Source: Pseudomonas synxantha
GTDB lineage: Bacteria > Pseudomonadota > Gammaproteobacteria > Pseudomonadales > Pseudomonadaceae
Direction: 5' to 3'
Assembly (NCBI RefSeq): GCF_900105675.1
Contig: NZ_LT629786.1
Location: forward strand, 3,472,001-3,536,000
DNA: 64,000 nucleotides
The notes beneath the pieces were generated by a model, which saw only the letters and a list, made by a program, of their open reading frames with translations, had not been told where the DNA came from and searched no databases. Positions 34,751-57,198 of this stretch are shown piece by piece (the stretch's first letter is position 1; the number at the start of each line of letters is the position of its first letter). The translations under genes were made by a program, and so were the position numbers.

Positions 34751-35054
34751 AGCCGACCAGAATGTTGGATCAGACCGAGTACATATCCGTTATTTGGGCA
34801 ACGGCCACTATTGGTTCCGCTTTTACAGCGGGTCACTTTGAAAAGCGCAAAGTAACCAAACGCTCTTGCCCCACCACTCGGCACCTCGCCTAGGCTCGGT
34901 GTGCCCGTAATCCGATAGGGATTTTGGGGGCCGCCGCCACGCGTCATCCATGGCGCGGGGCGGCTAAGATCAAGATCAAAAGCAGATCGAGATCAAGAGC
35001 GACTCGCTGCGCATCATGGTTACCGTCGGTTGCTACACAGTTGTGTAGATACCC
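34751..35054 (+). repeat. Long structured intergenic repeat, copy 1
   Basis: About 300 bp, shared with 44077-44385, 56820-57198 and, inverted, 44559-44875. It carries a series of stem-loops: CCGC/GCGG around TTTTACA, AGCG/CGCT around a CAAAGTAACCAAA loop, and a long hairpin near 34933-34965. This copy lacks the AACCGG hairpin that follows in copies 2 and 4. It ends with a CTACACA/TGTGTAG hairpin. Confidence 0.85.
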
Positions 35055-35060
35055 ATGGTC

Positions 35061-35090
35061 ATCGGGGGCAAGCCCCCTCCCACATTTTTT
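35061..35090 (-). repeat. REP, right arm of an interrupted REPIN
   Basis: Reverse-oriented REP with core GGGGGCAAGCCCCCTCCCAC, 18 bp from the pyrF stop. Confidence 0.85.
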
Positions 35091-35108
35091 ACAGTGCTCA
35101 CTTGAGTA

Positions 35109-35807
35109 TCAGGCGATCTCGGCAACCACTGCAGCCAACGCCTTGGCAGGATCCGCCGCCTGGCTGATCGGACGGCCAATCACCAGGTAATCGGAGCCCG
35201 CATCCAACGCCTGGCGCGGGGTCAGGATACGGCGCTGGTCATCTTGGGCACTGCCCGCCGGACGAATACCCGGCGTCACCAGTTGCAACGACGGGTGGGC
35301 GCTCTTCAGGGCCTGGGCTTCCAGGGCCGAGCACACCAGACCGTCCAGGCCGGCTTTCTGCGCCAGGGCCGCCAACCGCAAGACCTGCTCCTGGGGCTCG
35401 ATATCCAGGCCGATGCCGGCCAGGTCCTCGCGCTCCATGCTGGTCAGCACGGTTACGCCGATCAACAGCGGTTTCGGGCCGCTGCGCTGTTCCAGCACTT
35501 CGCGGCACGCACTCATCATGCGCAGGCCACCGGAGCAGTGCACATTGACCATCCACACGCCCATCTCGGCCGCAGCTTTCACCGCCATCGCCGTGGTGTT
35601 GGGAATGTCGTGGAATTTCAGGTCGAGGAACACTTCGAAGCCTTTGTCGCGCAAGGTGCCGACAATTTCAGCCGCGCAACTGGTGAACAGTTCCTTACCG
35701 ACCTTGACCCGGCAAAGCTTGGGGTCCAACTGGTCAGCCAGCTTCAGTGCGGCGTCACGGGTGGGGTAATCCAGGGCGACGATGATAGGAGTCTGGCAGA
35801 CGGACAT
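35109..35807 (-). CDS. pyrF: Orotidine-5'-phosphate decarboxylase
   Basis: Last step of de novo UMP synthesis: decarboxylation of OMP. 232 residues, full length for the bacterial enzyme. Catalytic DxKxxD motif at 62-67 ([12 protein letters not shown]) with Lys64; phosphate-gripping C-terminal residues in [17 protein letters not shown] and YLVIGRPI. Stand-alone cytosolic homodimer gene, as usual in Pseudomonas. The 260 bp to the divergent response regulator gene should hold both promoters. Confidence 0.97.
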
Positions 35808-36067
35808 TGGAATGGGCTCTCAGGCAAGTCGAAATCGGCGCGGATTGTAGCGCAAGCAGCGCGGTTGCGGGATCCGATGATCGGTAAATACTGATCAAAC
35901 GCCCGAGAGACGCCATTTCGGGCAATTGTTTCAAAGTTGATACAGACTCGACACGCCCTCAACACGCCGTGGGCCTAGCCTCGCGCACGTGACCGCCCGC
36001 CCGGTACTTCCAGGCTTGGAACCGGGCGCCTATGCTGACCGCAACAACCCAGGCAGATGATCGCACT

Positions 36068-36832
36068 ATGCATACCCCCTCCGCCCCCGTAACCGAAGAG
36101 CCAAAAGACGCGGTGATCGCCGAAGACAAGCGCTGGAATACCCGTGCGCTGATTGTCGACGACGACGTGCCGATCCGCGAACTGCTGATCGACTACCTGG
36201 CGCGCTTCAATATCCTCGCCTCGGGTGTCACCGACGGCACCGCCATGCGCCAAGCCATGCAAGCCGAGACCTTCGATGTGGTGGTGCTCGACCTGATGCT
36301 GCCGGGCGAGGACGGGCTGTCGCTGTGCCGCTGGTTGCGCGCCGAGTCGGACATTCCGATCCTGATGCTCACCGCCCGTTGCGAACCCACCGACCGCATC
36401 ATCGGCCTGGAACTGGGCGCCGATGACTACATGTCCAAACCGTTCGAGCCCCGGGAGCTGGTCGCGCGTATCCAGACCATCCTGCGCCGGGTGCGCGATG
36501 ACCGCAGCGAGCAACGCACCAACATCCGCTTCGACAATTGGCGCCTCAACAGCGTGCTGCGCCAGTTGGTGGCCGATGACGGCCTGGTGGTACCGCTGTC
36601 CAACGCCGAGTTTCGCTTGCTGTGGGTGTTCATCGAACGCCCGCGCCGTGTGCTGAGTCGCGAACAATTGCTGGATGCCGCCCGCGGCCGCTCCATCGAA
36701 GCCTTTGATCGCAGCATCGACTTGCTGGTGTCGCGCCTGCGCCAGAAGCTGGGAGATGATCCCAGGGCGCCACAACTGATCAAGACCGTGCGCGGCGAAG
36801 GCTACCTGTTCGATGCCCGGGATATCGGCTGA
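36068..36832 (+). CDS. OmpR-family response regulator
   Basis: 254 residues. Receiver domain about 26-140 with acidic cluster DDD (31-33), phosphoacceptor Asp75 in VVVLDLMLPG, and Lys in DYMSKPFEP; OmpR/PhoB winged helix about 155-250 (RRVLSREQLLDAARGRSIEAFDRSIDLLVSRLRQKLG). I start at 36068; an upstream ATG at 36032 would add 12 residues. The N-terminal tail of about 25 residues before the receiver is longer than usual. The stop overlaps the kinase start (TGATG), so the two form a cognate pair. Confidence 0.92.
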   Translation: MHTPSAPVTEEPKDAVIAEDKRWNTRALIVDDDVPIRELLIDYLARFNILASGVTDGTAMRQAMQAETFDVVVLDLMLPGEDGLSLCRWLRAESDIPILMLTARCEPTDRIIGLELGADDYMSKPFEPRELVARIQTILRRVRDDRSEQRTNIRFDNWRLNSVLRQLVADDGLVVPLSNAEFRLLWVFIERPRRVLSREQLLDAARGRSIEAFDRSIDLLVSRLRQKLGDDPRAPQLIKTVRGEGYLFDARDIG

Positions 36833-37866
36833 TGCGTGCCACCCTCAATACGCTGTTCGGGCGATTGTTCGGCCTATTGCTGGTGGCCATTGTGCTGGCC
36901 CACGTGCTGGCGATCTTCTGGTTCCACCACTATGGCCGGCCACCGCCCCCGCCTCCCGAGGTGTTCGTCGAACAACCGGATGGCACCCTCAAGCCACTGC
37001 ACAAGGAACCTCGCCCTTGGTTTGGTGGGCCGTTGGTACCGCTGACGTTTCAATTTATCTCGTTGATCATCGCCGCCTGGTACGGTGCCAAGCTGTTGAG
37101 TCGGCCGATCCAGCGCCTGAGCGCAGCGGCCGAGCGCTTGAGCATCGACCTCGACAGCCCGCCCCTGGTGGAGTCCGGCCCGCGCGAAGCACGGCAGGCC
37201 GCGTCGACCTTCAATCTCATGCAAAAGCGTATCCGCGAGCAAGTCAGCCAGCGTGCACGCATGCTCGGTGCGGTCTCCCACGACCTGCGCACCCCGCTGT
37301 CGCGCCTCAAGCTGCGCCTGGAACAGATCGAGGACACCCAGCTGCAAGGCCAGATGCGCCAGGACCTGGACGACATGATCGGCATGCTCGATGCCACCCT
37401 GAGCTACCTGCACGAACAACGCACCAGCGAGACACGGCACTGGCTCGACGTGCAGGCGCTGGTGGAGTCCCTCAGCGAAAACGCCCAGGACCAAGGCAGC
37501 GATGTGCAATTTTCCGGTACCTGTGCACCGTTGCAAGTACAGCCGATGGCCTTGCGCTCATGCCTTAACAACCTGATCGACAATGCCCTGCGCTATGCCG
37601 GCACGGCACATATCGTCCTGACGGACAGCCGCGACGCGCTGGTCATCCGTGTGATTGACCACGGCCCGGGCATTGCGGCCGACAAGCGTGAGGCGGTGTT
37701 CGAGCCGTTTTACCGACTCGAAGGGTCACGCAACCGCAACTCCGGCGGCGTCGGCCTGGGCATGACGATTTCCAGGGAAGCGGCGGAGCGCTTGGGCGGC
37801 CGCTTGAGCCTGGAAGAGACGCCTGGTGGCGGGCTGACCGCCGTCATGTGGCTGCCCCGCACCTGA
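36832..37866 (+). CDS. Sensor histidine kinase (EnvZ-like)
   Basis: 344 residues: TM1 about 11-31, a short periplasmic loop rich in proline (GRPPPPPPEVFVEQPDG), TM2 about 66-88, HAMP, dimerisation domain with phosphoacceptor His150 (GAVSHDLRTPLSR), and ATPase domain with N box NLIDNALRYAG, G1 DHGPGIA and G2 GGVGLGMTIS. The periplasmic domain of about 35 residues is too small for a typical ligand fold, so it may sense the membrane or a partner protein. Translationally coupled to the regulator upstream. Signal and targets unknown. Confidence 0.92.
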   Translation: MRATLNTLFGRLFGLLLVAIVLAHVLAIFWFHHYGRPPPPPPEVFVEQPDGTLKPLHKEPRPWFGGPLVPLTFQFISLIIAAWYGAKLLSRPIQRLSAAAERLSIDLDSPPLVESGPREARQAASTFNLMQKRIREQVSQRARMLGAVSHDLRTPLSRLKLRLEQIEDTQLQGQMRQDLDDMIGMLDATLSYLHEQRTSETRHWLDVQALVESLSENAQDQGSDVQFSGTCAPLQVQPMALRSCLNNLIDNALRYAGTAHIVLTDSRDALVIRVIDHGPGIAADKREAVFEPFYRLEGSRNRNSGGVGLGMTISREAAERLGGRLSLEETPGGGLTAVMWLPRT

Positions 37867-37871
37867 ACGCC

Positions 37872-38936
37872 TCAGTTACAGGGTTTGTCTTCGCGGCGGA
37901 CTTGCGCCTGAGTGGCGCTCCAGTCTGTCAGCAGGCTGTAGGCCACCGCCAGTAAGGTCGGGCCGATAAACAGGCCGATAAAGCCGAACGCTATCAAGCC
38001 GCCAAACACGCCCAGCAGCACAATCACCAGCGGCAGGTTGCCGCCACGGCTGATCAGGTACGGCTTGAGTACGTTATCCACGCCACTGATCACGAACGTG
38101 CCCCATACACCCAGGAACACGGCATAGGTGTAGTCGCCCTTCCACGCCAGCCAAGCCGTGGCCGGAATCCACACCAGCGGCGGGCCCATGGGGATCAGGC
38201 TGAGCAGGAAAGTGACGATACCCAGCACCAGCGCACCCGGCACGCCGGCGATCAGGAAGCCGATCAGGGCCAGCAGGGCCTGGGCCGCTGCGGTACCGAT
38301 CACACCATTGACCACCCGTTGCACAGTGCCGGCCACCAGTTCGATGTAATAGCCGGCGCGCTCGCCGATCAGGCGCTCCAGCAAGCGGTGCACAAACATC
38401 GCCAGGCGCGGCCCGTCACGGTAGAAAAAGAACACGAAGACCAGGCTCAGGGTCAGCTCGAGAATGCCGCCGCCAATTTGCGCACTGCGCGCCAGCAGCC
38501 AATTGCCGACCTGGCCGAGGTACGGCTTGATGGTGACCATCAGCGCCGCGCCTTGTTGATCGATACTGTCCCACATTCCCGCCAGGCGCTCGCCAACCAA
38601 CGGAATCGAACCCAGCCAGGACGGCGCCTCGGGCAAGCCGTCGACCTGGATATCCTTGATCAGCGCCACTGCATCGCGCACATGGTCGGCGAGGTTGAAC
38701 CCCAGCCATACCAGCGGCACTGCCACCAGCAACATCCAGCCCAGGGTCAGGATGCCGGCGGCCAGGGACTCCCGGCCACCCAGCCAGCGCGTGAGCAAAC
38801 GCATCAGCGGCCAACTGGCAAATGCCAGCACCGCCCCCCAGAACAGCGCCGACCAGAACGGCGCCATGACCCAGAAGCTGGCACCGAACAGCACCAGCAG
38901 CAGGATTTGCACCAGCAGGCGATCGTTATTGAGCAT
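37872..38936 (-). CDS. AI-2E family transporter (YdiK-like)
   Basis: Inner-membrane protein of 354 residues with about eight hydrophobic segments, including paired segments at each end and the conserved PMGPPLVWIPATAWL stretch near residue 250 and FGFIGLFIGPTLLAVAYSL at the end. The family exports AI-2 in TqsA or runs Na+/H+ exchange in other members; which applies here is not visible. It ends 6 bp from the convergent kinase gene and is last in a run of six leftward genes. Confidence 0.87.
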   Translation of the reverse strand: MLNNDRLLVQILLLVLFGASFWVMAPFWSALFWGAVLAFASWPLMRLLTRWLGGRESLAAGILTLGWMLLVAVPLVWLGFNLADHVRDAVALIKDIQVDGLPEAPSWLGSIPLVGERLAGMWDSIDQQGAALMVTIKPYLGQVGNWLLARSAQIGGGILELTLSLVFVFFFYRDGPRLAMFVHRLLERLIGERAGYYIELVAGTVQRVVNGVIGTAAAQALLALIGFLIAGVPGALVLGIVTFLLSLIPMGPPLVWIPATAWLAWKGDYTYAVFLGVWGTFVISGVDNVLKPYLISRGGNLPLVIVLLGVFGGLIAFGFIGLFIGPTLLAVAYSLLTDWSATQAQVRREDKPCN

Positions 38937-38973
38937 CGGGTATCTCGAGAATAAGGCTATTGGAAGAGAGCTT

Positions 38974-39000
38974 AGGCGAACGGCGCGGGTCCGTTCGCCT
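38974..39000. terminator. Hairpin between DUF4892 and AI-2E genes
   Basis: Perfect 10-bp inverted repeat AGGCGAACGG / CCGTTCGCCT with a 7-nt loop, no T tract. It could reduce read-through from the upstream genes. Confidence 0.4.
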
Positions 39001-39008
39001 GATAACGG

Positions 39009-39827
39009 TCAGCGTATCAGATGCAGGTGCAATCCCTTAGCGTCACCGGTGCCGGTTTCCAGGCGGGCAGCGCGCACGCCGGCATCGATCAGCCCTTGGC
39101 GCCAGGCTTCGGCGGTGGGCCCGGTCAGGCTGATGCGCAAGGTGGTGTCGAGGTTCAGGCCGCGGGAAATCAAGGTCAGCCACGTGGCGTCAGGTTCGGC
39201 ACCCAGCGCCGGGAAGTCCAGCTCGCCGGTGCTTTTCAGTTCACGCAACAGCGTGGCAGAGGTCGGCAGCAGGTTACCCAAAGGCGCGCTGGCGTCGAGT
39301 TGCTCGACATGCAGGTAAGCGCGACGGTTACCGCGGGTGATGCCGTACAGCGCGACCAGGGAATTGTCCTGCGGGGCGGCCAGGCGCAGCAGCAGGTATT
39401 CCTGCTGGCCATCGGCCCCCACCAGCTTGGCGTTGCCGAACACTTCATTGGCCCACAGGCTGCTTTCGCCGCAATCGCGGGCCTGGCACCAGAACAGCAA
39501 TTGCGCGCCGTTGGCCTGCAAGGCTTCGCGCGTTGCCGTGAAGGCCGCGCTGGAACTGTGCTCGGCGGGCAGTTCATAGGTGATTGCAGTGGCTTGGCCC
39601 CGCGCGGTGGCCTGGCCCTCGGAGCGCAACTGGCCGCTGATCTTGCGGATGGCGCCCATGGGGTAGATGCGTTCCTTTTCTTCAGCGGGGCGATAATCGA
39701 CGATTTGCGCGTCAACCTGGCGGGCCACGGCAGGTAGATCCTGGCTGCCCGGCACGTCAGCGGCGAACACCAGGGGGCTGAAACAGCAAAGGCCAAGAGC
39801 ACGGAGACATCCTTTACCCAGGCTCAT
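39009..39827 (-). CDS. Exported DUF4892 protein
   Basis: 272 residues with a signal peptide about 1-22 (ending SPLVFAADVPG), so periplasmic or outer-membrane associated. I recognise the DUF4892 arrangement: DLPAVARQVDAQIVDYRPAEEKERIYPMGAI at the N-terminus, then LLFWCQARDCGESSLWANEVFG and YLLLRLA, and an OmpA-like-looking C-terminal region TSATLLRELKSTGELDFPAL. Function is not established. It is in the leftward run downstream of two alpha/beta hydrolase genes, separated by about 100 bp. Confidence 0.78.
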   Translation of the reverse strand: MSLGKGCLRALGLCCFSPLVFAADVPGSQDLPAVARQVDAQIVDYRPAEEKERIYPMGAIRKISGQLRSEGQATARGQATAITYELPAEHSSSAAFTATREALQANGAQLLFWCQARDCGESSLWANEVFGNAKLVGADGQQEYLLLRLAAPQDNSLVALYGITRGNRRAYLHVEQLDASAPLGNLLPTSATLLRELKSTGELDFPALGAEPDATWLTLISRGLNLDTTLRISLTGPTAEAWRQGLIDAGVRAARLETGTGDAKGLHLHLIR

Positions 39828-39929
39828 CGGATCAATGAGCCCTGGCCAATGGGGGTGACAGCGGTATTGAGTGTGTACATAGTTGACTCCCTTTCAATCC
39901 GCCCAGCCTCGGCAGTTGACCTCGCCAAG

Positions 39930-40784
39930 TCAAGGCGCGGAGAAGAACCGATTGAAACAGTCTGCAACAAGAACGGCGCCGGGCTCGTCATTCAAGTGTA
40001 AATGATGGCCACCTGGCAGCGTGGTGACGGTGAAGGGCAGCTGGGAAAGCAATTCAGCATGTTTCGCCAGCATGCCGTCAGCCGCGACCACCAACTGCGT
40101 AGGGCAACCTACGCGCCTTACGAAAGCCATAGCCTGCTCATCGGTCAGGCGCGTCGGCGATGCCAAGGTCAGGCGGCTGTCGCTGCGCCAGGTGTAACCG
40201 CCCGGTACTGGCATCAGGCCGCGCTGGGCCAGCAGTTCCGCGGCTTCACGACTGACCGCCACCACGCCCTTCATCCGCGCCTCCACCGCTCGATCGAGCG
40301 TGCCGTAGACAGGCTTGCGCTTGTCTTGCAGGCTCATTTGCGCCTGCAAGGCCATGCCCAGGCGTTCGGCCGCGTTCTCGGCGCTGGCGGTCGGAGGGAT
40401 CACGCCATCGATCAAACCCAAGTGCGTCACACGCTCCGGCAAGGCCCCAGCCAACACCAGGGAGACGATGGCACCCAGGGAATGGCCAAGTAATGCAAAA
40501 CGTTGCCAGCCCAATTGCTCGGCGACCTGCAGCACGTCATAGACATAGTCCCACAAGGCATAACCGGCCCCTGCCGGACGATGGTCCGAGTGCCCGTGCC
40601 CCGCCAGATCCAGCGCGACAATACGCAAGCCGTGCAGCTTGGGCGCCAGGCGCGCAAAGCTGTTGGCGTTGTCCAGCCAGCCATGCAGGGCGATCACCGG
40701 CAGGCCATCCTCGGGGCCGAACAGATGAGCCGCCAACTCAATGTGCGGCAGGCTCAGGCGAACTTCTTCGACAGGTGTGCTCAT
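39930..40784 (-). CDS. Alpha/beta hydrolase (second of a tandem pair)
   Basis: 284 residues from the ATG at 40784. Oxyanion HGWLDNANSF near residue 35, nucleophile elbow GHSLGA, LIDGVIPPTA after it, acid in VVAADGML and base His in GGHHLHLNDEP. Its start overlaps the stop of the upstream hydrolase by 4 bp, so the two are translationally coupled. The pair follows an acyl-CoA ligase and a thioesterase gene, suggesting action on acyl or ester compounds; the actual substrate is unknown. Confidence 0.87.
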   Translation of the reverse strand: MSTPVEEVRLSLPHIELAAHLFGPEDGLPVIALHGWLDNANSFARLAPKLHGLRIVALDLAGHGHSDHRPAGAGYALWDYVYDVLQVAEQLGWQRFALLGHSLGAIVSLVLAGALPERVTHLGLIDGVIPPTASAENAAERLGMALQAQMSLQDKRKPVYGTLDRAVEARMKGVVAVSREAAELLAQRGLMPVPGGYTWRSDSRLTLASPTRLTDEQAMAFVRRVGCPTQLVVAADGMLAKHAELLSQLPFTVTTLPGGHHLHLNDEPGAVLVADCFNRFFSAP

Positions 40785-41584
40785 GCGCAACTGCGCTCGC
40801 GGGCTTGCCAACGGGCGAACAGGTTCTTGATCAAGGTGGCGGTGTCCTGGGGGCGTTCCAGGGGGAACATATGGCCGCCCGGCATGGTGAGCATTTCGCC
40901 CATGGGCAGGCGGTCGACGCCGCTGGCATGGTGGCGCATCACCACACGGCTCTGGCGCCCACGCACCACCGCCAGCGGCACCTTCAATTGGCGCACCTGG
41001 CCCGGGCTGGTGTGGGGTAAGCCGCGATAGATGCTGATTTCGGTGGCCGGATCGAAACGCAGGCGCAGGCGGTCGCCCACTTGCTGCAGGCCATGTTGCA
41101 GGTACGCGTCAAAACAATCGGGATCGAAGCCACGAAAAAGGGTCTTGCCGGCAAAATAGCTGCGTGCGGCTTCAAGGTCGGTGAACTCTTCACGGCGGCC
41201 GAGGGTGCGCCCAGCCGGCGTCAGGCGGTCGATAAAGCCAAAACGCTTGGCGGCACGGATCACCCAGCGGTCCGCCCGGGTCAGCACCGGCGAATCCAGC
41301 ATTACCACGCCCCGGTACAACTGCGGGCAACGCATGGCTGCGTGCAAGTGCAGCACGCCCCCGAGGGAATGGCCCACGCCCCACACCGGCTCCGGCTGCT
41401 GTTGCAGATGGTGGATCAACTCATCCACCAGGTTCTGCCAGTTATCGTCCACCGGGAACCTGGGGTCGTGACCGTGCTGCGGCAGGTGCGCCACCGCATA
41501 TTCCGGGGCCAGGGCGGCAAACAGCTTGCCGTAAGTGGCCGATGGGAAGCCATTGGCGTGGGTAAAAAACACGTGCTGCGGCAT
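40781..41584 (-). CDS. Alpha/beta hydrolase (first of a tandem pair)
   Basis: 267 residues. Oxyanion-region THANGFPSATYG, nucleophile elbow GHSLGGVLH, base His in MPGGHMFPLERP. It differs clearly from its downstream neighbour, so the pair is not a recent duplication. It is cytosolic and lies 97 bp after the hotdog thioesterase gene. This order of ligase, thioesterase and two hydrolases matches what I remember around PA1617-PA1622 in P. aeruginosa. No substrate established. Confidence 0.87.
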   Translation of the reverse strand: MPQHVFFTHANGFPSATYGKLFAALAPEYAVAHLPQHGHDPRFPVDDNWQNLVDELIHHLQQQPEPVWGVGHSLGGVLHLHAAMRCPQLYRGVVMLDSPVLTRADRWVIRAAKRFGFIDRLTPAGRTLGRREEFTDLEAARSYFAGKTLFRGFDPDCFDAYLQHGLQQVGDRLRLRFDPATEISIYRGLPHTSPGQVRQLKVPLAVVRGRQSRVVMRHHASGVDRLPMGEMLTMPGGHMFPLERPQDTATLIKNLFARWQARERSCA

Positions 41585-41681
41585 ACAGGTTCCATCGACG
41601 AAAACAGAGGTGGATTGTCACCATGCCGGCGCCCTGCGGCAATGACTGTAACTGCCAGGAATGATGACACTCACGCCACGC

Positions 41682-42125
41682 CTATCGCGCCGGTGGTTTT
41701 TCGCCCAGCGGCACCACGGCCATGGTCAGCCGCGAGATACAGCTGGCCTTGCCGTCGTCGCTGCTCAGGCGGATGTCCCACACCTGGGTCGTGCGCCCGA
41801 TATGAATAGCCTTGGCCACCGCCGTCACCCGCCCGCTACGCACGCCACGCAGGTGGTTGGCATTGACCTCCAGGCCCACGCAATAGAACTTGCTCGCGTC
41901 GATGCACAGGTAGGCCGCCATGGAGCCGACACTCTCGGCCAGCACCACCGAGGCGCCGCCGTGCAACAGCCCGTAAGGCTGATGGGTGCGGTGATCGACC
42001 ACCATGCTGGCGGTGAGGGATTCGTCGTCGAAGCTTTCGAAACGAATATCCAGCAACTCGCCGATGGTGTTTTTCTGCATCGCATTGAGTTGTTCAATAT
42101 TCGGTTGGGTGCGCCACAGGCTCAT
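41682..42125 (-). CDS. Hotdog-fold acyl-CoA thioesterase (YdiI/MenI-like)
   Basis: 147 residues, single hotdog domain. The YGLLHGGASVVLAESVGSMAA segment contains the conserved HGG and the catalytic Glu on the central helix (ASVVLAES), as in the YdiI/EntH/PaaI group. It hydrolyses acyl- or aroyl-CoA thioesters. It starts 30 bp after the stop of an acyl-CoA ligase gene, so ligase and thioesterase are made together; it may release or proofread products of the ligase. Confidence 0.87.
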   Translation of the reverse strand: MSLWRTQPNIEQLNAMQKNTIGELLDIRFESFDDESLTASMVVDHRTHQPYGLLHGGASVVLAESVGSMAAYLCIDASKFYCVGLEVNANHLRGVRSGRVTAVAKAIHIGRTTQVWDIRLSSDDGKASCISRLTMAVVPLGEKPPAR

Positions 42126-42155
42126 GGGGTTGTCCTTGTTGATTTTATTACGTGC

Positions 42156-43863: not shown

Positions 43864-43999
43864 TATAGCACATACAAAGGCAACGGCCTGCTGGAGCGAT
43901 AGGCTATAAGGCCGCTATCGAGGCATAGGTGGCTACATGATTTTGGCGCGGCCCCGGTCAGTCAAGCGAACGAAATGCTCAAGACAGCGAGGATCCAAT

Positions 44000-44066
44000 G
44001 TGGGAGTCCCCACCACATCTTCGATGTGACGCTGTCGCGCAGCAAACTAGGGAGCTTGCTCCCGTG
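44000..44066 (+). repeat. REP interrupted by a ~45-bp insert
   Basis: REP left part AATGTGGGAG and right part GGAGCTTGCTCCCG are separated by about 45 bp that contain the 39-bp direct repeat CACATCTTCGATGTG plus GTCGCGCAGCAA. Confidence 0.6.
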
Positions 44067-44076
44067 GCGGCCTGAC

Positions 44077-44385
44077 AGCCGACCGGGATGTTGGATCAGA
44101 CCGAGTACATATCCGTTATTTAGGTTACGGCCACTATTGGTTCCGCTTTTACAGCGGGTCACTTTTGAAAAGAGCCCAAAAGTAACCAAAAGGCTCTTGC
44201 CCCACCACTCGGCACCTCGCCCAGGCTCGGTGTGCCCGTAATCCGACATTGATTTGGGGGGCCGCCGCCACGCGCCATCCATGGCGCGGGGCGGCTAAAC
44301 CGGCATCCCTGCCGGTTTACCCCCCAAATCAACATCGAATTCCGGCCAGCGTGGTTTAACGGGGCGCCTAAGATCAAAAGCACAG
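44077..44385 (+). repeat. Long structured intergenic repeat, copy 2
   Basis: Same element as copy 1 but with the AAGAGCC/GGCTCTT version of the second stem (44170-44198), plus the AACCGG/CCGGTT hairpin. The main 32-nt hairpin is at 44264-44295. Confidence 0.87.
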
Positions 44386-44430
44386 CGAGGCGGCCTTATA
44401 GCCGACCTGATTGTTGAGGCGTGCGCGTAC

Positions 44431-44458
44431 CCCTGTGGGAGCGGGCTTGCCCGCGAAG
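44431..44458 (+). repeat. REP of the P. putida-like type
   Basis: CCTGTGGGAGCGGGCTTGCC followed by CGCGAA, a different REP subtype from the others in the window. It lies between the two inverted long repeats. Confidence 0.8.
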
Positions 44459-44558
44459 GTCGTTAACGATGACGCGGAAAACCAGAAAGAACGCGGCGTT
44501 CTCAGGTTTTTCGCGAGCGCTCCTGCAGAAAAAACAGAAGCGCCGCCAGCGTATCTGC

Positions 44559-44875
44559 GATGCGCAGCGAGTCGCTTTTGATCTTGATCTCAGGCGCCCC
44601 GTTAAACCACGCTGGCCGAACGCAGGCTTGAAGCCGTGGGTAACCCGGCAGGACGCCGGGTTAGCCGTCCTGGGCCAAGGATGGCCCATGACGGCGGCCC
44701 ACGGTTTCAAGCCGGAGAGAGGGCACACCGAGCCTGGGCGAGGTGCCGAGTGGTGGGGCAAGAGCCTTTTGGTTACTTTTGGGCTCTTTTCAAAAGTGAG
44801 CCGCTGTAAGAGCGGAACCTATAGTGGCCGTTACCTAAGCAACGGATATGTACTCGCCCCATCAACCCAACAACC
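44559..44875 (-). repeat. Long structured intergenic repeat, copy 3 (inverted, divergent subtype)
   Basis: Reverse-complement orientation relative to copies 1, 2 and 4. The central part is diverged but stems are preserved by paired changes (main hairpin at 44664-44695). It faces copy 2 across about 170 bp. Confidence 0.85.
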
Positions 44876-44986
44876 CGGTCACATCGACGACGTGGCGCCG
44901 TCGCGCAGCAATCTGGGCCGCCTCCAAAATATCCGGCGTTAAGACTAAATTTTAACTATTTAAAATCAGTAGCTTAATTGAAGTTT

Positions 44987-45070
44987 GAGGGGCTTGCTCC
45001 CGATGAGGGAGTGTCAGCAAATTCATCTGGAGCTGACACCGCCATCGGGGGCAAGCCCCCTCCCACATTT
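44987..45070. repeat. REPIN with truncated left arm
   Basis: Left arm reduced to GAGGGGCTTGCTCCCGATG, right arm complete (ATCGGGGGCAAGCCCCCTCC then CACATTT). Internal inverted repeat TGTCAGC / GCTGACA lies between them. Confidence 0.82.
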
Positions 45071-50205: not shown

Positions 50206-52103
50206 CCTTGCGTCGTCGTTGGGATATCAACACCCGCACCCAGCTCATTACCCTGGGCCCCGCGTTATTGCTGACCCTGCTGTTGATCAGTTTCTTTACC
50301 TTCGTGCGTATCCAGGATTTGCGCCAGGAACTGGATCACACCGGTCAACTGATCGCCAACCAGCTGGCGCCCGCTACCGAGTACGGGGTGATTTCCGGCA
50401 ACAACGATGTGCTCGAATCCCTGCTGCGCGCGACCTTGGCCACGCCCCACGTACGCTTCCTGGAGATTCAGGACAGCGCCGAAAACATCCTGGTGTATGT
50501 CGAGCAACCGTCGGAGAAACATGACCGCTCACTGTCGGTGAAAGTGTTCCAGGCGCCGATCCGCCTGCAACATATCGAGCTGGGCAATGACTTCTTCCAG
50601 GACAACCTCAAGGGCCCCATGGTACCCCGCGCAGATTACCTGGGCCGGGTGATCGTCGGCATGTCCAACGACGCGTTCAGCCAGCGCCAGCAACAGATCC
50701 TGTTCAAGGCCGGGATCCTGGCGCTGTTCGCCCTGCTGTTCACTTTCCTGCTGGCGCGACGCCTGGCGGCGAGCCTGTCGCAGCCGATCAGCGCCATGGG
50801 CAACGCGGTCAAGGCGATCCAGCAGGGCGACTACAAGACCCCACTGCCGATTGTCGATGACTCGGAGCTGGGCGACCTGTCGCGGCATATCAACAACCTG
50901 GCCGAGGGCCTCAACCAAGCCAGTCGCGAACAGCAACAAGCCATCGCCCAGTTGATCCAGACCCGCGAGGAAGCCGAGCGTGCGAACAACGCCAAATCGG
51001 AATTCCTGGCGATGATGAGCCACGAACTGCGCACGCCCATGAACGGTGTGCTGGGTATGCTGCAACTGCTGGAAACCACCGAGATGACCGAAGAACAGAC
51101 CGAGTACGCGGCGCTGGCTTCCGAGTCCACCGAGCACTTGCTCAAGGTGATCAACGACATCCTCGACTTCTCACGCATTGAGCGCGCCGCACTGGAACTG
51201 GAACATATTTCCTTCAACCTGGCGGACCTGATCAACAGCTGCGCTCAGGCCTTCCAGCACAGCGCCCAGCAGCGCGGGCTGACCCTGGAGTTACCGATTC
51301 CTGCGGGCATGGAAGCCCTGCAAGTGCGGGGCGACCCGACACGTATCCGGCAGGTACTGGTCAACCTGATCGGCAACGCGTTGAAATTTACCGAACATGG
51401 CAGCGTGACCGTCGAGCCCCATTGGCAAACCCTGGACCACGAACTGGTCTGGTTCACCTGCACGGTGCGCGACAGCGGAATTGGCATTTCTGCCGAACGC
51501 CTGGAGCTGATGTTCGATGCGTTCCAGCAGGCCGACAGTTCCATTTCAAGACGTTACGGCGGCACCGGCCTGGGGCTGCCAATTGCGCGCACCCTGGCCG
51601 AGCGCATGGGCGGCACCTTGCGGGCCCGGAGCGAAGAAGGCCGGGGCTCGGTGTTTACCCTGGAAATCCCGCTGGCTATCGACCAGCAACAGGTGCAGGC
51701 CATTGCTCCAGACGCCGTTGGCAAAACCAGTGCCGGTGACGGACGCCACGTGTTGCTGGTGGAAGACAACCCGGTCAATCGCACAGTGGTCGAAGCAATG
51801 TTGCGCAGCCTGGGTTTTGAAGTCAGCCTGGCCACCGATGGCGCCGAGGCGATCCGCAGCGCCGAGAGCCTGATTTTCACCGCCATCCTGATGGATTGCC
51901 GCTTGCCGTTGATCGACGGCTACGAAGCCACTCGACAGATTCGCCAACTGCCCGGCTGCGCCGATCTGCCGATTATCGCCCTGACGGCCAACGCATTGCA
52001 GGGTGACCGCGAAGCGTGCCTGGCAGCCGGAATGAACGATTACCTGGCCAAGCCGTTCAAACGCACGGATTTGCAGGAAATCCTGCAGCGCTGGGTGCAA
52101 TAG
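50202..52103 (+). CDS. Hybrid sensor histidine kinase (PA1611-like)
   Basis: 633 residues: TM1 about 15-36, periplasmic domain about 38-168, TM2 about 169-186, HAMP, dimerisation domain with His274 ([12 protein letters not shown]), ATPase domain ([30 protein letters not shown]), then a receiver domain from about 515 with Asp565 ([13 protein letters not shown]) and Lys in YLAKPFKR. There is no HPt domain, so the receiver must pass phosphate to an HPt elsewhere. By position next to fabA it corresponds to PA1611, which I recall as interacting with RetS in the Gac/Rsm network; that role here is inferred. Confidence 0.88.
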
Positions 52104-52168
52104 CGCCGCGCCATCAGCCAACTCTGACTGGCGTGAAAGACGAAAGTGCGGCAGTCTTAGGCACCCGA

Positions 52169-52195
52169 ACGGGCCGATAAACAGGCCCGGTTTAA
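52169..52195 (+). terminator. Hairpin after the hybrid kinase gene
   Basis: CGGGCC / GGCCCG stem with an 8-nt loop followed by a T/A-rich tract (GTTTAAAATTT). Plausible terminator separating the kinase operon from fabAB. Confidence 0.45.
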
Positions 52196-52201
52196 AATTT
52201 C

Positions 52202-52219
52202 AGTGAACAAGTGTACATT
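52202..52219 (+). promoter_or_regulatory. DesT/FabR-like operator upstream of fabAB
   Basis: AGTGAACAAGTGTACATT is an imperfect palindrome; its left half AGTGAAC is identical to that of the DesT operator I recall from P. aeruginosa desCB (AGTGAACGCTTGTTGACT). DesT controls unsaturated fatty-acid synthesis genes including fabAB. It is about 135 bp before the fabA start. Confidence 0.45.
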
Positions 52220-52352
52220 CAGTACCTTGCCGCTGTGACTTTCACTACAACGCAATAGTCTATGTGTAGGCTGCCGCTATGAGGCATGAACGCTTCATTC
52301 GGTTCGGGAAGATTTACCCTACCCTGCCGCATGGGATTATTGAGGAGCTCGC

Positions 52353-52868
52353 ATGACCAAACAAAACGCCTTTACTCGGGAAGACCTGCTGCGCTGCAGT
52401 CGCGGTGAGCTGTTCGGCCCAGGTAACGCGCAACTGCCCGCCCCGAACATGCTGATGGTGGATCGCATCACCCATATCAGCGAAGAGGGTGGCAAGTACG
52501 GCAAAGGTGAATTGGTCGCCGAGCTGGATATCACCCCGGACCTCTGGTTCTTCGCCTGTCACTTCGAAGGCGACCCTGTGATGCCAGGCTGCCTGGGCCT
52601 CGATGCCATGTGGCAACTGGTCGGCTTCTACCTGGGCTGGCAAGGCCTGCCGGGCCGCGGCCGCGCCCTGGGTTCGGGCGAAGTGAAGTTCTTTGGCCAG
52701 GTCCTGCCGAGCGCCAAGAAAGTCACCTACAACATTCAAATCAAGCGCGTCCTCAAGGGCAAGCTGAACCTGGCCATCGCCGACGGTTCGGTGACTGTCG
52801 ACGGACGCGAGATCTATACTGCCGAAGGCCTTCGGGTCGGCGTATTCACTTCCACTGACAACTTTTAA
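52353..52868 (+). CDS. fabA: 3-hydroxyacyl-ACP dehydratase/isomerase FabA
   Basis: 171 residues, the exact size of the family. It dehydrates 3-hydroxydecanoyl-ACP and isomerises trans-2 to cis-3-decenoyl-ACP, the branch point to unsaturated fatty acids. Catalytic His70 ([14 protein letters not shown]) and Asp84 ([10 protein letters not shown]). Cytosolic homodimer. 11 bp before fabB, with which it forms the classical fabAB operon. A DesT-like operator lies upstream. Confidence 0.98.
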
Positions 52869-52879
52869 GGGTTATCCGC

Positions 52880-54100
52880 ATGCGCCGCGTCGTTATCACT
52901 GGTCTGGGCATCGTTTCTTGCCTGGGCAATGACAAAGAGACCGTCACCGCTAACCTGCGTGCAAGTCGCCCTGGCATCCGCTTCAACCCGGAATATGCCG
53001 AAATGGGTCTGCGTAGCCAGGTTTCCGGCTCCATCGACCTGCCCCTCGAAGAGCTGATCGATCGCAAGATCTATCGCTTCGTCGGCCACGCTGCCGCCTA
53101 CGCCTACCTGGCCATGAAAGACGCGATCGCCGATTCCGGCCTGAGCGAAGACCAGGTGTCGAACGTACGTACCGGCCTGATCGCCGGCTCCGGCGGCGCA
53201 TCGACCCTCAACCAGATGGAAGCGCTGGACATCCTGCGCGAAAAAGGCGTGAAACGCGTTGGCCCTTACCGTGTCACGCGGACCATGGGCAGCACCGTTT
53301 CCGCCTGCCTGGCCACGCCATTCCAGATCAAGGGCGTGAACTACTCGATCTCCTCCGCGTGCGCCACCAGTGCCCACTGCATTGGTACTGCCGTTGAGCA
53401 GATCCAGCTGGGCAAGCAGGACATCGTATTCGCTGGCGGCGGTGAAGAAGAACATTGGAGCCAGTCGTTCCTGTTCGACGCCATGGGCGCACTGTCCACC
53501 CAGTACAACGAAACCCCGGAAAAAGCCTCCCGTGCCTACGACGCCAAGCGTGACGGTTTCGTCATCGCCGGCGGTGGCGGCATGGTGGTGGTCGAGGAGC
53601 TGGAACACGCCCTGGCCCGTGGCGCAAAGATCTATGCGGAAATCGTTGGCTACGGCGCAACGTCCGACGGCTACGACATGGTTGCACCAAGCGGCGAAGG
53701 TGCCATCCGCTGCATGCAGATGGCCATGGCCACCGTGGATACCCCAATCGACTACCTGAATACCCACGGCACCTCGACTCCGGTCGGTGACGCCAAGGAA
53801 ATGGAAGGCGTACGTGCGGTATTCGGCGACAAGGCGCCGGCCATCAGCTCCACCAAGAGCCTGTCCGGTCACTCCCTGGGCGCTGCCGGCGTTCACGAAG
53901 CGATCTACTGCCTGCTGATGATGGAAGGCAACTTCATGGCCGGCTCGGCCAACATCGAAGAGATCGACCCGGTCGTTGCCGACATGCCGATCCTGACCAA
54001 GACCGTAGAAAACGCTAAGATCGACACTGTGATGAGCAACAGCTTCGGCTTCGGTGGCACCAACGCCACCCTGGTACTGAAACGCTGGCAGGGCAAGTAA
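52880..54100 (+). CDS. fabB: 3-oxoacyl-ACP synthase I FabB
   Basis: 406 residues. Condensing enzyme that elongates cis-3-decenoyl-ACP and other acyl-ACPs. Catalytic Cys161 ([12 protein letters not shown]), His296 ([11 protein letters not shown]) and His331 ([11 protein letters not shown]) are all present. Cytosolic homodimer. Second gene of fabAB, ending before a clear terminator. Confidence 0.98.
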
Positions 54101-54122
54101 GCCCCGCAGGCCAAGTCACCTG

Positions 54123-54152
54123 AAAAAGCCCCGACTGGTTCGGGGCTTTTTT
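54123..54152 (+). terminator. fabAB terminator
   Basis: AAAAAGCCCCGA / TCGGGGCTTTTTT stem-loop with a T tract, 22 bp after the fabB stop. Confidence 0.92.
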
Positions 54153-54212
54153 ATGGGTGAACGCAAAGACCGAGGCGCCTGCTTCGCACCGGTCAAGGCA
54201 ACAAACGCACTA

Positions 54213-55235
54213 TCAGGGTGTGACGCCATTGCGAGGCGACTTGGGCAGTATCGCCAGGAAATTATCCCGCGCCACCTTGCGGGCCACGTCCTCGGGCAAC
54301 GCATCGAGAAACGGGTCGAAGCGGCGCATTTCCTTGCCCAGCTTATTGAAACGCCCGACCACATCAGACCCCAGCATAAAGCGCTCTGGAAAGCGCTCCA
54401 CCAGTTTTACCCACTCCGGCCGAGGCTGACCCGCCTCATCCAGCAGATAAGGCGTGAGCATGCTCCAGGACAGGTCGATATACAGGTTGGGGTACGCCTC
54501 GAGCATGCGGTTCAAGGTGGGCAGCAAAAAGTCCATCTGCACCTGATGCCGGTGGATTTCCTTGCTCGTGCCGGCATGGGCCCAGATAAAGCGTGTGTGT
54601 GGGTGGTTGCGCAACGACTCCTCGACTTCCGCGAGATACAGCGGATTACGCTCGCGCTTGGAGGTAATGTTGGAATGCAGCATCACCGGCAGGTCGTTTT
54701 CGGCGGCCAGATGATAGATACGCGTCATCGCTTCGTTGTTGGCGCGGGGCGTATCACCGGAAGTCAGGGCGGTGAGGTCGTCGTGGCGGGTGAACACTTC
54801 ACCGATGCCCTGCCACAATCCGGGGTTGAGGTCGAGCATGCGCTGGATATGGGCAGCGGAGTTCTTGTCGTTGGGATTGAAGCCGGCCAGGAACGGATGA
54901 AAGTGTTGGCGTTGCTCGGGGGCCAGCTTATTGACCGCTGCCGCGACAATCACATCGGTGGCACTGTACCAATAGGCATCGGCGTCATCACCGGCGTAGT
55001 AGCGCGGGCGCTTGGGCTCATCTTCGTGCCATTTCTTGGCCACGGGGATACCGGAAATCATCACATGCTCGATGCGGTTTTCGGCCATCGCCTTGAGCAG
55101 TTTGTCCATGCCTGCCGTTTCCTGGAAAAAATCCACGTAGTGCAGGTGCGCGTCACTGTAGGCATAGTCGCGGGCCTGCGCGGCAAGGCTGGCGGCAACG
55201 AGCAACAAGGCAAGACTCAGGCGGGTCCGAAGCAC
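54213..55235 (-). CDS. Exported amidohydrolase-family protein
   Basis: 340 residues, Amidohydrolase_2-like TIM barrel. Signal peptide about 1-21 (LSLALLLVAASLAAQA), unusual for this mostly cytosolic family, so it acts in the periplasm. Metal-site HLH in SDAHLHYVDFF, His in VMLHSNITS, His in IWAHAGTS and Asp in LGSDVVGRFN are in the usual order. The start is GTG at 55235 with GAGGTG upstream. Substrate unknown. It converges on fabB. Confidence 0.83.
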   Translation of the reverse strand: MLRTRLSLALLLVAASLAAQARDYAYSDAHLHYVDFFQETAGMDKLLKAMAENRIEHVMISGIPVAKKWHEDEPKRPRYYAGDDADAYWYSATDVIVAAAVNKLAPEQRQHFHPFLAGFNPNDKNSAAHIQRMLDLNPGLWQGIGEVFTRHDDLTALTSGDTPRANNEAMTRIYHLAAENDLPVMLHSNITSKRERNPLYLAEVEESLRNHPHTRFIWAHAGTSKEIHRHQVQMDFLLPTLNRMLEAYPNLYIDLSWSMLTPYLLDEAGQPRPEWVKLVERFPERFMLGSDVVGRFNKLGKEMRRFDPFLDALPEDVARKVARDNFLAILPKSPRNGVTP

Positions 55236-55372
55236 GGTAACACCTCAATTAGGCTAATACGGGTAGACCTTGCGCCAGTCATCCCGGTTCAGCACGGAAA
55301 AACGGGAACACTCGGGCGCCAGCATGCTCTATAACTGCATGACCTTCATCCTGCCCTCTTGTGAGGTTCGCC

Positions 55373-55789
55373 ATGCCTGTTACCGTCAATACACTGAACG
55401 CTGAAAACTTCCGTCACAGCGTCAATATCAACAACCACGAGCTGTTTACCGACCTGCCCAAGAGCCTGGGTGGCGACGACTCGGCGCCCTCCCCCCACGA
55501 TTATTTCGATGCTGCGCTGGCGTCATGCAAAGCCTTGACGGTCAGGCTCTACGCGCAGAAGAAAGATATCCCGCTCACCGGCGTGACCGTTGAAGTAACT
55601 CACGACGCCGCCGAAGAGCAAAAAGGCAAATACAAACTCAGCGTCAAATTGACCCTCAAGGGTGTATTGAGCGATGAGCAGCGCGAGGAGTTGCATCGCG
55701 TTGCAGACAAGTGCCCGGTGCACAAGCTGATGACCACCGCCGAAATCAGCATCGAGACGAAATTATCGGAAGGTGCCTTCAGCGCATAG
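55373..55789 (+). CDS. OsmC-family peroxiredoxin-like protein
   Basis: 138 residues. OsmC/Ohr fold with the two conserved redox cysteines: ASCKALTVRLYA (peroxidatic) and DKCPVHKLM. These proteins reduce organic hydroperoxides or act in sulfur redox chemistry. The closest type is the YhfA-like OsmC group by the SPHDYFDAALASC arrangement. Start at 55373 with GAGG upstream. It is followed by the pirin gene 64 bp later. Confidence 0.9.
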   Translation: MPVTVNTLNAENFRHSVNINNHELFTDLPKSLGGDDSAPSPHDYFDAALASCKALTVRLYAQKKDIPLTGVTVEVTHDAAEEQKGKYKLSVKLTLKGVLSDEQREELHRVADKCPVHKLMTTAEISIETKLSEGAFSA

Positions 55790-55853
55790 CGCCAACTTCC
55801 CATCGAGCGGGTTATGCTCAGCCGCATCCAACCCGCTCAAACAGGGATGCTCC

Positions 55854-56720
55854 ATGACCACCCTCACCGTGATCCGCCCCTGCGCCGAAGATGTCGAAGG
55901 CCAGCCGATCCTGCGCCCGCTACCCTCCCGTGAATGCCGCAGCGTCGGGCCCTTTGTGTTTTTCGACCATATGCTGCCGACCCGCTATGCACCAGGCACG
56001 GGCATGAATATCCGCCAGCACCCGCATATCGGCCTGTCCACCCTCACCTACCTGTTTGAAGGCGCCTTGCAGCACAAGGATAGCCTCGGTTCGGACCAGG
56101 TGGTGCAGGCCGGTGATGTCAGCTGGATGACCGCCGGTAGCGCAATTGCCCATGTCGAGCGTACCCCCGAAGCGCTCAAGGCCAGCGGTTTCAGCCTGCA
56201 TGGCCTGCAAGTATGGCTGGCCTCACCCAAGGACCACGAGACCGGGCCTGGCCACTACAGCCATCACTCGGCGGCGAGCTTGCCGGTGAGCGATAACCTC
56301 GGTGTGCAGGTGCGCCTGATCGCCGGTGATGGCTTCTGTCTCAAGTCTCCGGTGCCGGTGCTCTCGCCGACACTGTATGCCGAGGTGCAGATGCAGGTGG
56401 CTACCACCTTGCTGGTTCCCGATGAGCATGAGGAGCGCGCGGTGTATATGCTGGAAGGTGATGCGCAGCTCGACGGCGAGCCGCTGGCAGTGCATAGCCT
56501 GGTGGTATTGCCGCCAGGGCAAGAGATGACACTGTTTGCCGAGACCGATTGCCATGTGATGGTGTTTGGCGGCGCGCCACTGGATGGGCCGCGGCGGATC
56601 AACTGGAATTTCGTGGCGAGCGATCCGGCGATGATCGAGCAGGCACGGCAGCGGTGGGCGGCTGGGGATTGGCCGACGGTGCCGGGGGAGTCAGAAAGAA
56701 TTGAATTGCCTGTTAGATAG
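55854..56720 (+). CDS. Pirin-family protein
   Basis: 288 residues, bicupin. N-terminal cupin has the iron ligands in NIRQHPHIGLSTLTYLFEG (two His) and AHVERTPE (His and Glu); the C-terminal cupin with PDEHEERAVYMLEGDAQLDG follows. Bacterial pirins act as quercetinases or redox regulators; the role here is unknown. Start at 55854; a nearby ATG seven bases earlier is out of frame. It lies after the OsmC gene and may be cotranscribed with it. Confidence 0.9.
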   Translation: MTTLTVIRPCAEDVEGQPILRPLPSRECRSVGPFVFFDHMLPTRYAPGTGMNIRQHPHIGLSTLTYLFEGALQHKDSLGSDQVVQAGDVSWMTAGSAIAHVERTPEALKASGFSLHGLQVWLASPKDHETGPGHYSHHSAASLPVSDNLGVQVRLIAGDGFCLKSPVPVLSPTLYAEVQMQVATTLLVPDEHEERAVYMLEGDAQLDGEPLAVHSLVVLPPGQEMTLFAETDCHVMVFGGAPLDGPRRINWNFVASDPAMIEQARQRWAAGDWPTVPGESERIELPVR

Positions 56721-56721
56721 T

Positions 56722-56766
56722 CATCGGGAGCAAGTCGAATCGTCGCACCGCCCCCCACATTTTTGA
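56722..56766 (-). repeat. Degenerate REP with ~15-bp insertion
   Basis: ATCGGGAGCAAG and GCCCCCCACATTTT match the two parts of a reverse-oriented REP, separated by about 15 bp. It directly follows the pirin stop. Confidence 0.55.
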
Positions 56767-56780
56767 CTGTATTCACAGTT

Positions 56781-56815
56781 CAAGTGTGGGAGGGGGCTTG
56801 CCCCCGATGGCGGCC
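56781..56815 (+). repeat. REP preceding long repeat copy 4
   Basis: GTGGGAGGGGGCTTGCCCCC core, followed directly by GGCGGCCTGACAGCCGACC, the same junction seen before copies 1 and 2. Confidence 0.85.
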
Positions 56816-56819
56816 TGAC

Positions 56820-57198
56820 AGCCGACCAGAATGTTGGATCGGACCGAGTACATATCCGTTATTTGGGCAACGGCCACTATTGGTTCCGCTTTTACAGCGG
56901 GTCACTTTGAAAAGCGCAAAGTAACCAAACGCTCTTGCCCCACCACTCGGCACCTCGCCCAGGCTCGGTGTGCCCGTAATCCGCCATGGATTTGGGGGGC
57001 CGCCGCCACGCGCCATCCATGGCGCGGGGCGGCTAAACCGGCATCCCTGCCGGTTTACCCCCCAAATCCCTGTCGAATTCCGGCCAGCATGGTTTAACGG
57101 GGCGCCTAAGATCAAAAGCCAGATCAAGAGCAAGAGCAAGATCAAGAGCGACTCGCTGCGCATCGTGGTTACCGGGGAGCTACACAATGTGTAGATAC
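56820..57198 (+). repeat. Long structured intergenic repeat, copy 4
   Basis: The most complete copy: all stem-loops including the AACCGG hairpin, the purine-rich GATCAAGAGCAAGAGC tract, and the terminal CTACACA/TGTGTAG hairpin. An open frame across it (88 codons) is not conserved in other copies and is not a gene. Confidence 0.87.

Follow-up and report, generated by a model that had tools for sequence, protein, structure and literature searches.

A dispersed intergenic repeat of Pseudomonas synxantha with a TwoAYGGAY core, a putative twin RsmA/CsrA-binding RNA

What kind of element is a repeat of about 300 base pairs that lies four times within one short stretch of the Pseudomonas synxantha chromosome, and does its sequence matter as DNA, as RNA or as both? 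The stretch in question (contig NZ_LT629786.1, positions 3,472,001 to 3,536,000; 64,000 nucleotides (nt), hereafter the window) had received an initial annotation that placed four copies of the repeat between genes, the third of them inverted, and that proposed a mobile non-autonomous element or a source of structured RNA. The sequence bears out the four copies at the positions then given (Table 1), with copy 3 inverted relative to the others; the proposal as to their nature was a fair guess that posed as alternatives two things which the evidence fits at once. We interpret the repeat, with moderate confidence, as a dispersed, mostly non-coding and non-autonomous intergenic element whose TwoAYGGAY core is a putative twin RsmA/CsrA-binding RNA.

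The repeat had been assigned to no named family, and this proved incorrect: its core is the TwoAYGGAY RNA (RF01731), which was recognized above the gathering score in copies 2 to 4. Copies 2 to 4 are members of this family, with scores of 48.5 to 61.6 bits against a gathering score of 43, and the full modules have covarying twin GGA hairpins enclosed in an outer stem. Copy 1, in which half of the module (including hairpin 1, a loss that had been overlooked) is missing, gave no RF01731 match, and for the repeats of the window RF01731 was the only Rfam family to attain its gathering score. In the strain's own genome (one contig of 6,841,916 bases) RF01731 has 69 matches above gathering, a lower bound, as 150 of the 294 candidates were scored. 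A 37-mer chosen outside the twin hairpins and allowed up to three mismatches also matched 69 times (33 forward, 36 reverse), against none for the reversed control, and 72 copies in two subtypes were extracted from the genome. Five RF01731 matches (3619923-3620043, 6220080-6220200, 3289446-3289577, 3309753-3309855 and 6710937-6711039) have none of these copies within 200 nt, the one at 6710937 being about 400 nt from an extracted copy.

Read along the strand that carries GGA in its loops (the GGA strand), the repeat runs from an array of CTTGAT-like hexamers through GGCGCCCCG into a three-way junction, where a long outer stem encloses hairpins 1 and 2, whose loops mostly hold GGA, and from there through CACCGAGCC...GGUGCC into a tail of two further hairpins, hp3 (GGUUACUUUU/AAAAGUGACC) and hp4 (CCGCU/AGCGG), neither of which matches Rfam. 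Subtype A has an outer stem of the GACAGGGAUUUGGGGGG/CCCCCCAAAUCCCUGUC type and subtype B one of the GCAGGCUUGAAUCCGUGGG/CCCACGGAUUCAAGCCUGC type, sequences that are little alike, yet both fold. Minimum-energy folds of the full modules contained exactly two hairpin loops in 64 cases out of 64, the remaining 8 of the 72 copies being without a full module. In some lineages about 16 nt (CTGGGCCGGCNTTCCGG-like) are inserted in the loop of hp3 (L048:1530-1609, L065:1868-1946, L170:4552-4630 and L287:9398-9475). The main hairpins of copies 2 and 3 are, as had been described, both 32 nt long (six pairs, one A/G mismatch, six pairs and a 6-nt loop), and between the two copies both partners have changed at pair 5 (C-G to T-A), pair 8 (C-G to T-A) and pair 10 (C-G to G-C). 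What that description missed is the strand: in copies 1, 2 and 4 the conserved structure lies on the opposite one, and its loop there reads ANGGAN.

The same kind of change recurs across divergent Pseudomonas lineages, where the helices are kept by two-sided substitutions. Modules were gathered by their flanking anchors, not by loop sequence, from the strain's own genome, from further Pseudomonas genomes and from public contigs; 130 distinct modules yielded 35 representatives (less than 92% mutual identity), 25 of which were aligned after one truncated copy and nine chance matches had been left out. RNAalifold returned 38 pairs for these 25 modules, 18 of them with two-sided changes, and 96.7% of the cells of the alignment pair, 98 cells showing a two-sided change. 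The covariation score was 0.324 compared to 0.121 in shuffled alignments, none of 500 shuffles equalled the observed value on any of five measures, and sliding the partners by one to three columns lowered pairing to 30–47%. The claim of selection on nucleic-acid structure is thus supported.

The tail gave a related picture. In an alignment of 19 sequences (from 20 representatives, one divergent sequence being left out here and retained in the crossing-stem comparison below; 4 of 89 tail sequences did not parse) all cells pair, and three pairs covary, with CG/GC at 10:9, CG/UA/GC at 14:3:2 and CG/UA at 10:9. None of 500 shuffles had as high a covariation score, and two other measures were unremarkable (pairs with a two-sided change, matched in 205 of 500 shuffles; further pair types, in 500 of 500) because few columns vary. 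The CCGC/GCGG stem noted at the outset is present and pairs in 19/19 sequences, with covariation in two of its five pairs. A further stem (AGCG/CGCT in copies 1 and 4, AAGAGCC/GGCTCTT in copies 2 and 3, around AAAGTAACCAAA) can be seen as described, but it crosses the longer hairpin hp3, and AAAGTAACCAAA, taken for its loop, in fact forms an arm of a longer, competing hairpin. Its covariation has modest support: over the 20 representatives, the hp3 loop forms with its own upstream strand a longest stem of 4.5 base pairs on average, compared to 3.85 for swapped loops, at least 5 base pairs being reached in 8/20, and the observed mean was attained by 13 of 2000 permutations. This stem may represent an alternative fold of hp3 or a pseudoknot with it.

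As to which strand folds, the evidence leans towards the GGA strand, whether it does so as RNA or as single-stranded DNA. In the 25 modules the cells at consensus pairs include 35 G-U, no A-C and 31 other non-pairs, with the caveat that 11 of the 35 G-U cells fall at one junction pair and that related sequences share changes. Departures from the consensus pair within subtype A comprise 10 G-U, 1 A-C, 7 two-sided and 32 other changes, and one pair of hp3 is U-G in all 19 sequences.

The loops of the twin hairpins resemble sites of Rsm/CsrA proteins. In the 64 full modules of the genome, located without use of loop sequence, GGA is present in loop 1 of 63, in loop 2 of 60 and in both loops of 59; in the 25 divergent modules, it is found in hairpin 1 of 25 and hairpin 2 of 23. 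When loci in named genomes were retrieved by hp3 only (rows L124-L203, 80 of 118 stretches, with 24 matches too near an end set aside), two adjacent A(N)GGA hairpins were present in 30/37 Pseudomonas loci, 0/27 Cupriavidus loci and 6/600 resampled upstream sequences; in one of the 30 (L176) a chance neighbour was counted first and the usual hairpin pair follows. Matches from distant genera were kept out of these loop statistics because the RF01731 model itself rewards GGA loops. The loops are CAGGGAUG and CAUGGAUG in subtype A, and CAAGGAUG, CAGGGAUG or CAUGGAUG in hairpin 2 of subtype B, variation among copies falling mostly at the two N positions of ANGGAN. A site of the type CANGGANG is thus offered by hairpin 2 in most copies and by hairpin 1 in subtype A; (A/U)CANGGANG(U/A) has served as the Rsm site for P. 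fluorescens SS101 (PMC4353343), and RsmA, RsmE and RsmI of P. putida are reported to bind CANGGANG (PMC6849547). RF01731 belongs moreover to Rfam clan CL00106, given as the ‘Csr-Rsm protein binding clan’ in PMC5753348, and TwoAYGGAY has been proposed as a CsrA-binding small RNA of Clostridia (PMC4333381).

From these resemblances we infer that the repeat RNA is transcribed and bound by RsmA/CsrA, and an RsmA/CsrA decoy or anchor is the best-supported of the functions that can be predicted. In such a scheme (i) copies come and go as DNA, often beside repetitive extragenic palindromic (REP) sequences, and are probably moved in trans; (ii) the GGA strand would be transcribed from a promoter of its own or by read-through; (iii) the two Rsm-type loops, separated by 28 nt in subtype A, would form a two-site anchor for one dimer of RsmA, RsmE or RsmI; (iv) each copy would act as a small RsmA/CsrA decoy, or as an RsmA site in cis on the transcript that carries it; and (v) the tail may stabilize or switch the RNA.

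A number of observations weigh against this interpretation. Distinct one-sided changes in subtype A comprise 6 G-U, 1 A-C and 12 others, and on the GGA strand hairpin 2 of copy 1 contains a single A-C mismatch. The loop of hairpin 1 counts only five bases (AGGAC or AGGAU), one fewer than CANGGANG requires, in 16 of the 25 divergent modules, and likewise (CAGGACG) in all 14 subtype-B copies of the genome. The CANGGANG 8-mer is not enriched over the whole window (42 matches, 43.65 expected). Young copies preserve their loops less than their hairpin stems: among 46 young subtype-A copies the six GGA sites depart from the consensus in 1.0 copies per site on average, which places them near the outer stem (1.04), below the remaining unpaired sites (1.94) and well above the stems of hairpins 1 and 2 (0.12). 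Special protection of the loops in young copies was looked for and gave no sign; copies look near neutral in their loops once inserted, and any constraint would act mainly on the lineages that spread. On the other side, a CsrA family gene accompanies RF01731 in 24/24 genomes with a match (own included) and occurs in 14/17 without (Fisher p 0.06; these 17 being the first of the class list, not a random draw), which says little because CsrA is so common. A crude scan found no sigma-70-like promoter in copy 4 (0.3 expected); in the stretch with copies 2 and 3 it gave a single promoter-like site, at 44939-44966 close to copy 3 (0.5 expected). A bias of insertion with respect to the strand of host genes was looked for and not found, the GGA strand being sense in 11 and antisense in 9 codirectional placements. 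Finally, the REP halves that abut the ends of a compound form of the repeat (see below) may be cargo or target.

Within Pseudomonas the distribution of RF01731 is patchy and often multi-copy, 30 of 59 genomes (own included) having matches above cut-off. For the class as a whole the figure is 16 of 369, or 24 of 369 at E<=0.001 (own included); at most 39 candidates per genome were scored in the Pseudomonas survey and at most 7 in the class survey, so copy numbers are lower bounds. At the class level a hairpin of at least 10 pairs lies within 130 nt downstream in 19/27 loci and upstream in 3/27 (27 of the 28 loci from other genomes), most of the 19 downstream hairpins being, by eye, relatives of hp3. 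Cupriavidus has the same hp3 and hp4 tail without GGA hairpins, and at six loci there (L136, L161, L172, L186, L199 and L202) the tail occurs twice in back-to-back orientation, at a distance of 554-742 nt. Mobile records hold little of the repeat: 1 of 72,556 plasmid and 3 of 50,697 phage records have a match, none spanning more than 58% of the query. Viral contigs had no match to hp3 and 12 to a strict twin-hairpin pattern, 9 of the 12 at one site. In these viral-classed contigs (L285, L287-L293, L295) a copy occupies the same orthologous position, which we take to be a tailocin site; the adjoining gene looks like mutS, and close to it is one for a LexA/PrtR-like regulator, both identifications being by eye. 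In ‘Pseudomonas phage SC_10_H1H2H8_2017’ a match is followed by a transposase gene, which was considered as a partner and set aside: its protein has HTH_21 and rve domains, and by eye the sequence resembles an insertion sequence (IS) that interrupted the repeat. Transposase genes of insertion sequences lie inside repeat copies at L279, L281 and L262, which makes the repeat itself a landing site.

Comparison with relatives shows the repeat to be present here and absent there. The site of copy 4 is empty in 6/6 aligned relatives, with the flanking genes conserved; in the closest relative, G004, 15 nt stand in place of 405 nt, directly preceded by the REP that is also present here at 56784-56808. 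Copies 2 and 3 form the compound repeat of Table 1, whose site measures 1246 nt here and 12 nt in G004, and 1371-1396 versus 200-252 nt in three others; it is empty in 4/4 relatives with both flanks listed (G006 having one flank only). The site of copy 1 measures 461-517 nt as opposed to 83-107 nt in 5/5 relatives; for the compound and copy 1 sites the empty-site calls come from match coordinates only. Presence in one genome and absence from the relatives fits insertion, loss in all relatives being a less simple account. The compound recurs elsewhere in the genome in six further long matches of 91-94% identity and two more of 86-88%. Its left ends follow TGTGGGAG or TGTGGGAA in 9/9 copies seen and its right ends run exactly into GGGGCTTGC in 6/9, abutting REP halves with a possible GAG overlap; that these halves are possibly cargo and not target is suggested by the mere 12 nt at the compound site of G004. 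Direct repeats of 38 nt (82% identical) lie near the compound ends at 44014-44051 and 44880-44917. An autonomous parent of the compound was sought at three extra right ends (745, 1328 and 3550 kb) and not found: one is a copy with an internal deletion, and the other two are copies interrupted by transposase genes (read by eye, without domain search, as IS3- and IS110-type).

The chief rival is that the repeat is purely selfish DNA, its hairpins being single-stranded DNA signals for a transposase (REP/RAYT-like HUH or other) and the GGA loops belonging to that signal instead of being RsmA sites. We regard this as possible, though on balance doubtful. The empty sites are what it would predict, as are the lack of strand bias relative to genes and the loops that young copies keep less well than hairpin stems, and G-T wobbles in single-stranded DNA would mimic the G-U signal. 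A REP lies on the 3' side of 42 of the 62 copies with an end found (on the 5' side, in forward orientation, of 18/50), and one of the two PF01797 genes of the genome (a 156-codon frame, L063) stands between REPs of the same type, making this REP-associated transposase (RAYT-like) a candidate mover of the repeat. What this rival explains less well is the structure: loop variation is mostly confined to the two N positions of ANGGAN, hp3 and the crossing alternative stem both covary, and two-sided changes in several separate helices seem beyond the needs of one transposase site. Nor were the terminal inverted repeats or the target duplication of a miniature inverted-repeat transposable element (MITE) evident around single copies by eye, no systematic search having been made.

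Gene context suggests another function, that of a REP-like terminator or protector of mRNA 3' ends, which would insulate convergent genes or stabilize upstream mRNAs; we consider it unlikely. By heuristic codon-usage gene calls, the copies lie only between genes in the window, as initially stated, but not throughout the genome, where 4/72 extend more than 50 nt into the edge of a called gene. Among 50 single copies, 26 lie between convergent, 4 between divergent and 20 between codirectional genes, compared to 12, 12 and 29 of the 53 neighbour pairs of the window, so that convergent placement is commoner (Fisher p 0.002) and divergent placement rarer (p 0.06); the same tail-to-tail bias has been reported for P. 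fluorescens repeats (PMC2718517). Around copies 2 and 3 there are four terminator-like sites where 1.5 are expected (standard deviation 1.5), two of which, at 44142-44158 and 44815-44801, consist of hp4 and CACTTTTG on the strand opposite to GGA. Yet the scan found no terminator-like site in copy 4, convergent placement is also expected from avoidance of harm, and the GGA loops and the three-way junction would be left unexplained.

It is very improbable that the stems are kept by template-switch repair between near-palindrome arms and not by selection: the near identity of hairpin stems in young copies would agree with such repair, which does not however predict two-sided changes in the three-way junction and the crossing helices, the excess of G-U over A-C, or the loop motif. 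Least credible of all is a decayed coding sequence or a coding element, despite mechanical open reading frames of 106-187 amino acids that overlap the window copies, as 45/68 copies have no frame open over about 260 nt on the GGA strand, in keeping with the broken reading frame already noted, and the 23 with open frames, 18 of which share one frame, are spread over three (18, 4 and 1).

Table 1. Coordinates of the repeat copies and their parts in the window (strand is that of GGA; a dot marks features without strand).
Feature	Position	Strand	Remarks
Copy 1	34751..35054	-	Retains tail hairpins and hairpin 2; hairpin 1 and outer-stem 5' arm deleted
Copy 2, subtype A	44077..44385	-	
TwoAYGGAY RNA (RF01731) of copy 2	44230..44351	-	61.6 bits, gathering 43
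Hairpin 2 of copy 2, loop AUGGAU	44264..44295	-	
hp4 (tail hairpin) of copy 2	44143..44157	-	Sequence reading and family covariation
hp3 (tail hairpin) of copy 2, GGUUACUUUUG/CAAAAGUGACC	44157..44187	-	Sequence reading and family counts
Copy 3, subtype B, inverted	44559..44875	+	
TwoAYGGAY RNA (RF01731) of copy 3	44618..44720	+	48.5 bits, gathering 43
Hairpin 2 of copy 3, loop AAGGAU	44664..44695	+	
hp3 of copy 3	44771..44801	+	Sequence reading
hp4 of copy 3	44801..44815	+	Sequence reading
Copy 4, subtype A	56820..57198	-	
TwoAYGGAY RNA (RF01731) of copy 4	56965..57091	-	60.8 bits, gathering 43
Outer stem 5' arm, copy 4	57058..57080	-	Sequence reading, fold of like copies, family counts
Hairpin 1 of copy 4, AAACCGGC-AGGGAU-GCCGGUUU	57035..57056	-	
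Hairpin 2 of copy 4, loop AUGGAU	57002..57033	-	
Outer stem 3' arm, copy 4	56978..57001	-	Sequence reading and family counts
hp3 of copy 4	56900..56926	-	Sequence reading and family counts
hp4 of copy 4	56886..56900	-	Sequence reading and family counts
Second stem of the initial annotation, AGCG/CGCT, copy 4	56913..56933	-	Crosses hp3
Stretch absent from relative G004	56809..57213	.	405 nt here, 15 nt in G004
Compound repeat, about 992 bp	43997..44988	.	Copies 2 and 3 back to back, GGA strands diverging, with common spacer

Elsewhere in the window, four tRNA genes on the - strand (26319-26730) form two pairs of equal score, as if a two-gene unit had been duplicated.

Several known systems share features with the repeat. 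The TwoAYGGAY RNA, listed as RF01731 in PMC2864571, has the same outer stem and two adjacent AYGGAY-type hairpins, but here it is set inside a high-copy intergenic repeat of about 300 nt with a conserved 3' tail of hp3 and hp4. The Csr/Rsm sponge RNAs (CsrB/C, RsmX/Y/Z) likewise present GGA in hairpin loops, RsmY and RsmZ of SS101 being credited with eight GGA each, three of them in loops (PMC4353343); the repeat differs in having two sites per copy instead of many, but about 70 copies. REPINs and the REP-RAYT system, as described in PMC3116915 and PMC8266576, are also intergenic and multi-copy, with REPs at the edges and a RAYT-like gene with the same REP type, whereas the core here is about 300 nt and only 11/72 copies are flanked by two REPs in the inverted arrangement expected, which is not that of a REPIN. 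The P. fluorescens repeats R200 (320 bp, 47 in SBW25), R178 (101 bp, with an internal 11-bp inverted repeat) and R26 are, by their descriptions in PMC2718517 (Table 3), of the same order in size and copy number, and one of them may be the same repeat as ours. Among the matches listed from open-licence literature we found no paper that ties TwoAYGGAY to a repeat; one that names CsrA and a ‘repeat element’ (PMC9788540) is unrelated, and a search with the repeat's own letters returned only papers unrelated by title. The RNA family itself being already known, the contribution of our analysis is to place it within a repeat and to describe the tail that covaries, the evidence on the folded strand and the empty sites.

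In Pseudomonas, RsmA/CsrA governs secondary metabolism, biofilm formation and motility, and titration determines how active it is. More tentatively still than the rival of selfish DNA, one may picture a self-spreading decoy: a transposable repeat of Pseudomonas and other Gammaproteobacteria whose selected payload, an RNA, would combine a pair of RsmA/CsrA hairpins with a conserved tail where two helices cross and perhaps exclude each other. The number of copies in a genome, between none and about 70, would then set the Rsm buffering capacity of a species. The repeat connects two subjects: an orphan family of structured RNA for which CsrA binding has been predicted, and the intergenic repeats that abound in P. 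fluorescens. If dozens of repeats do supply titration sites, mobile DNA would account for part of the differences in Rsm regulation between strains, alongside the few sponge RNAs already known.

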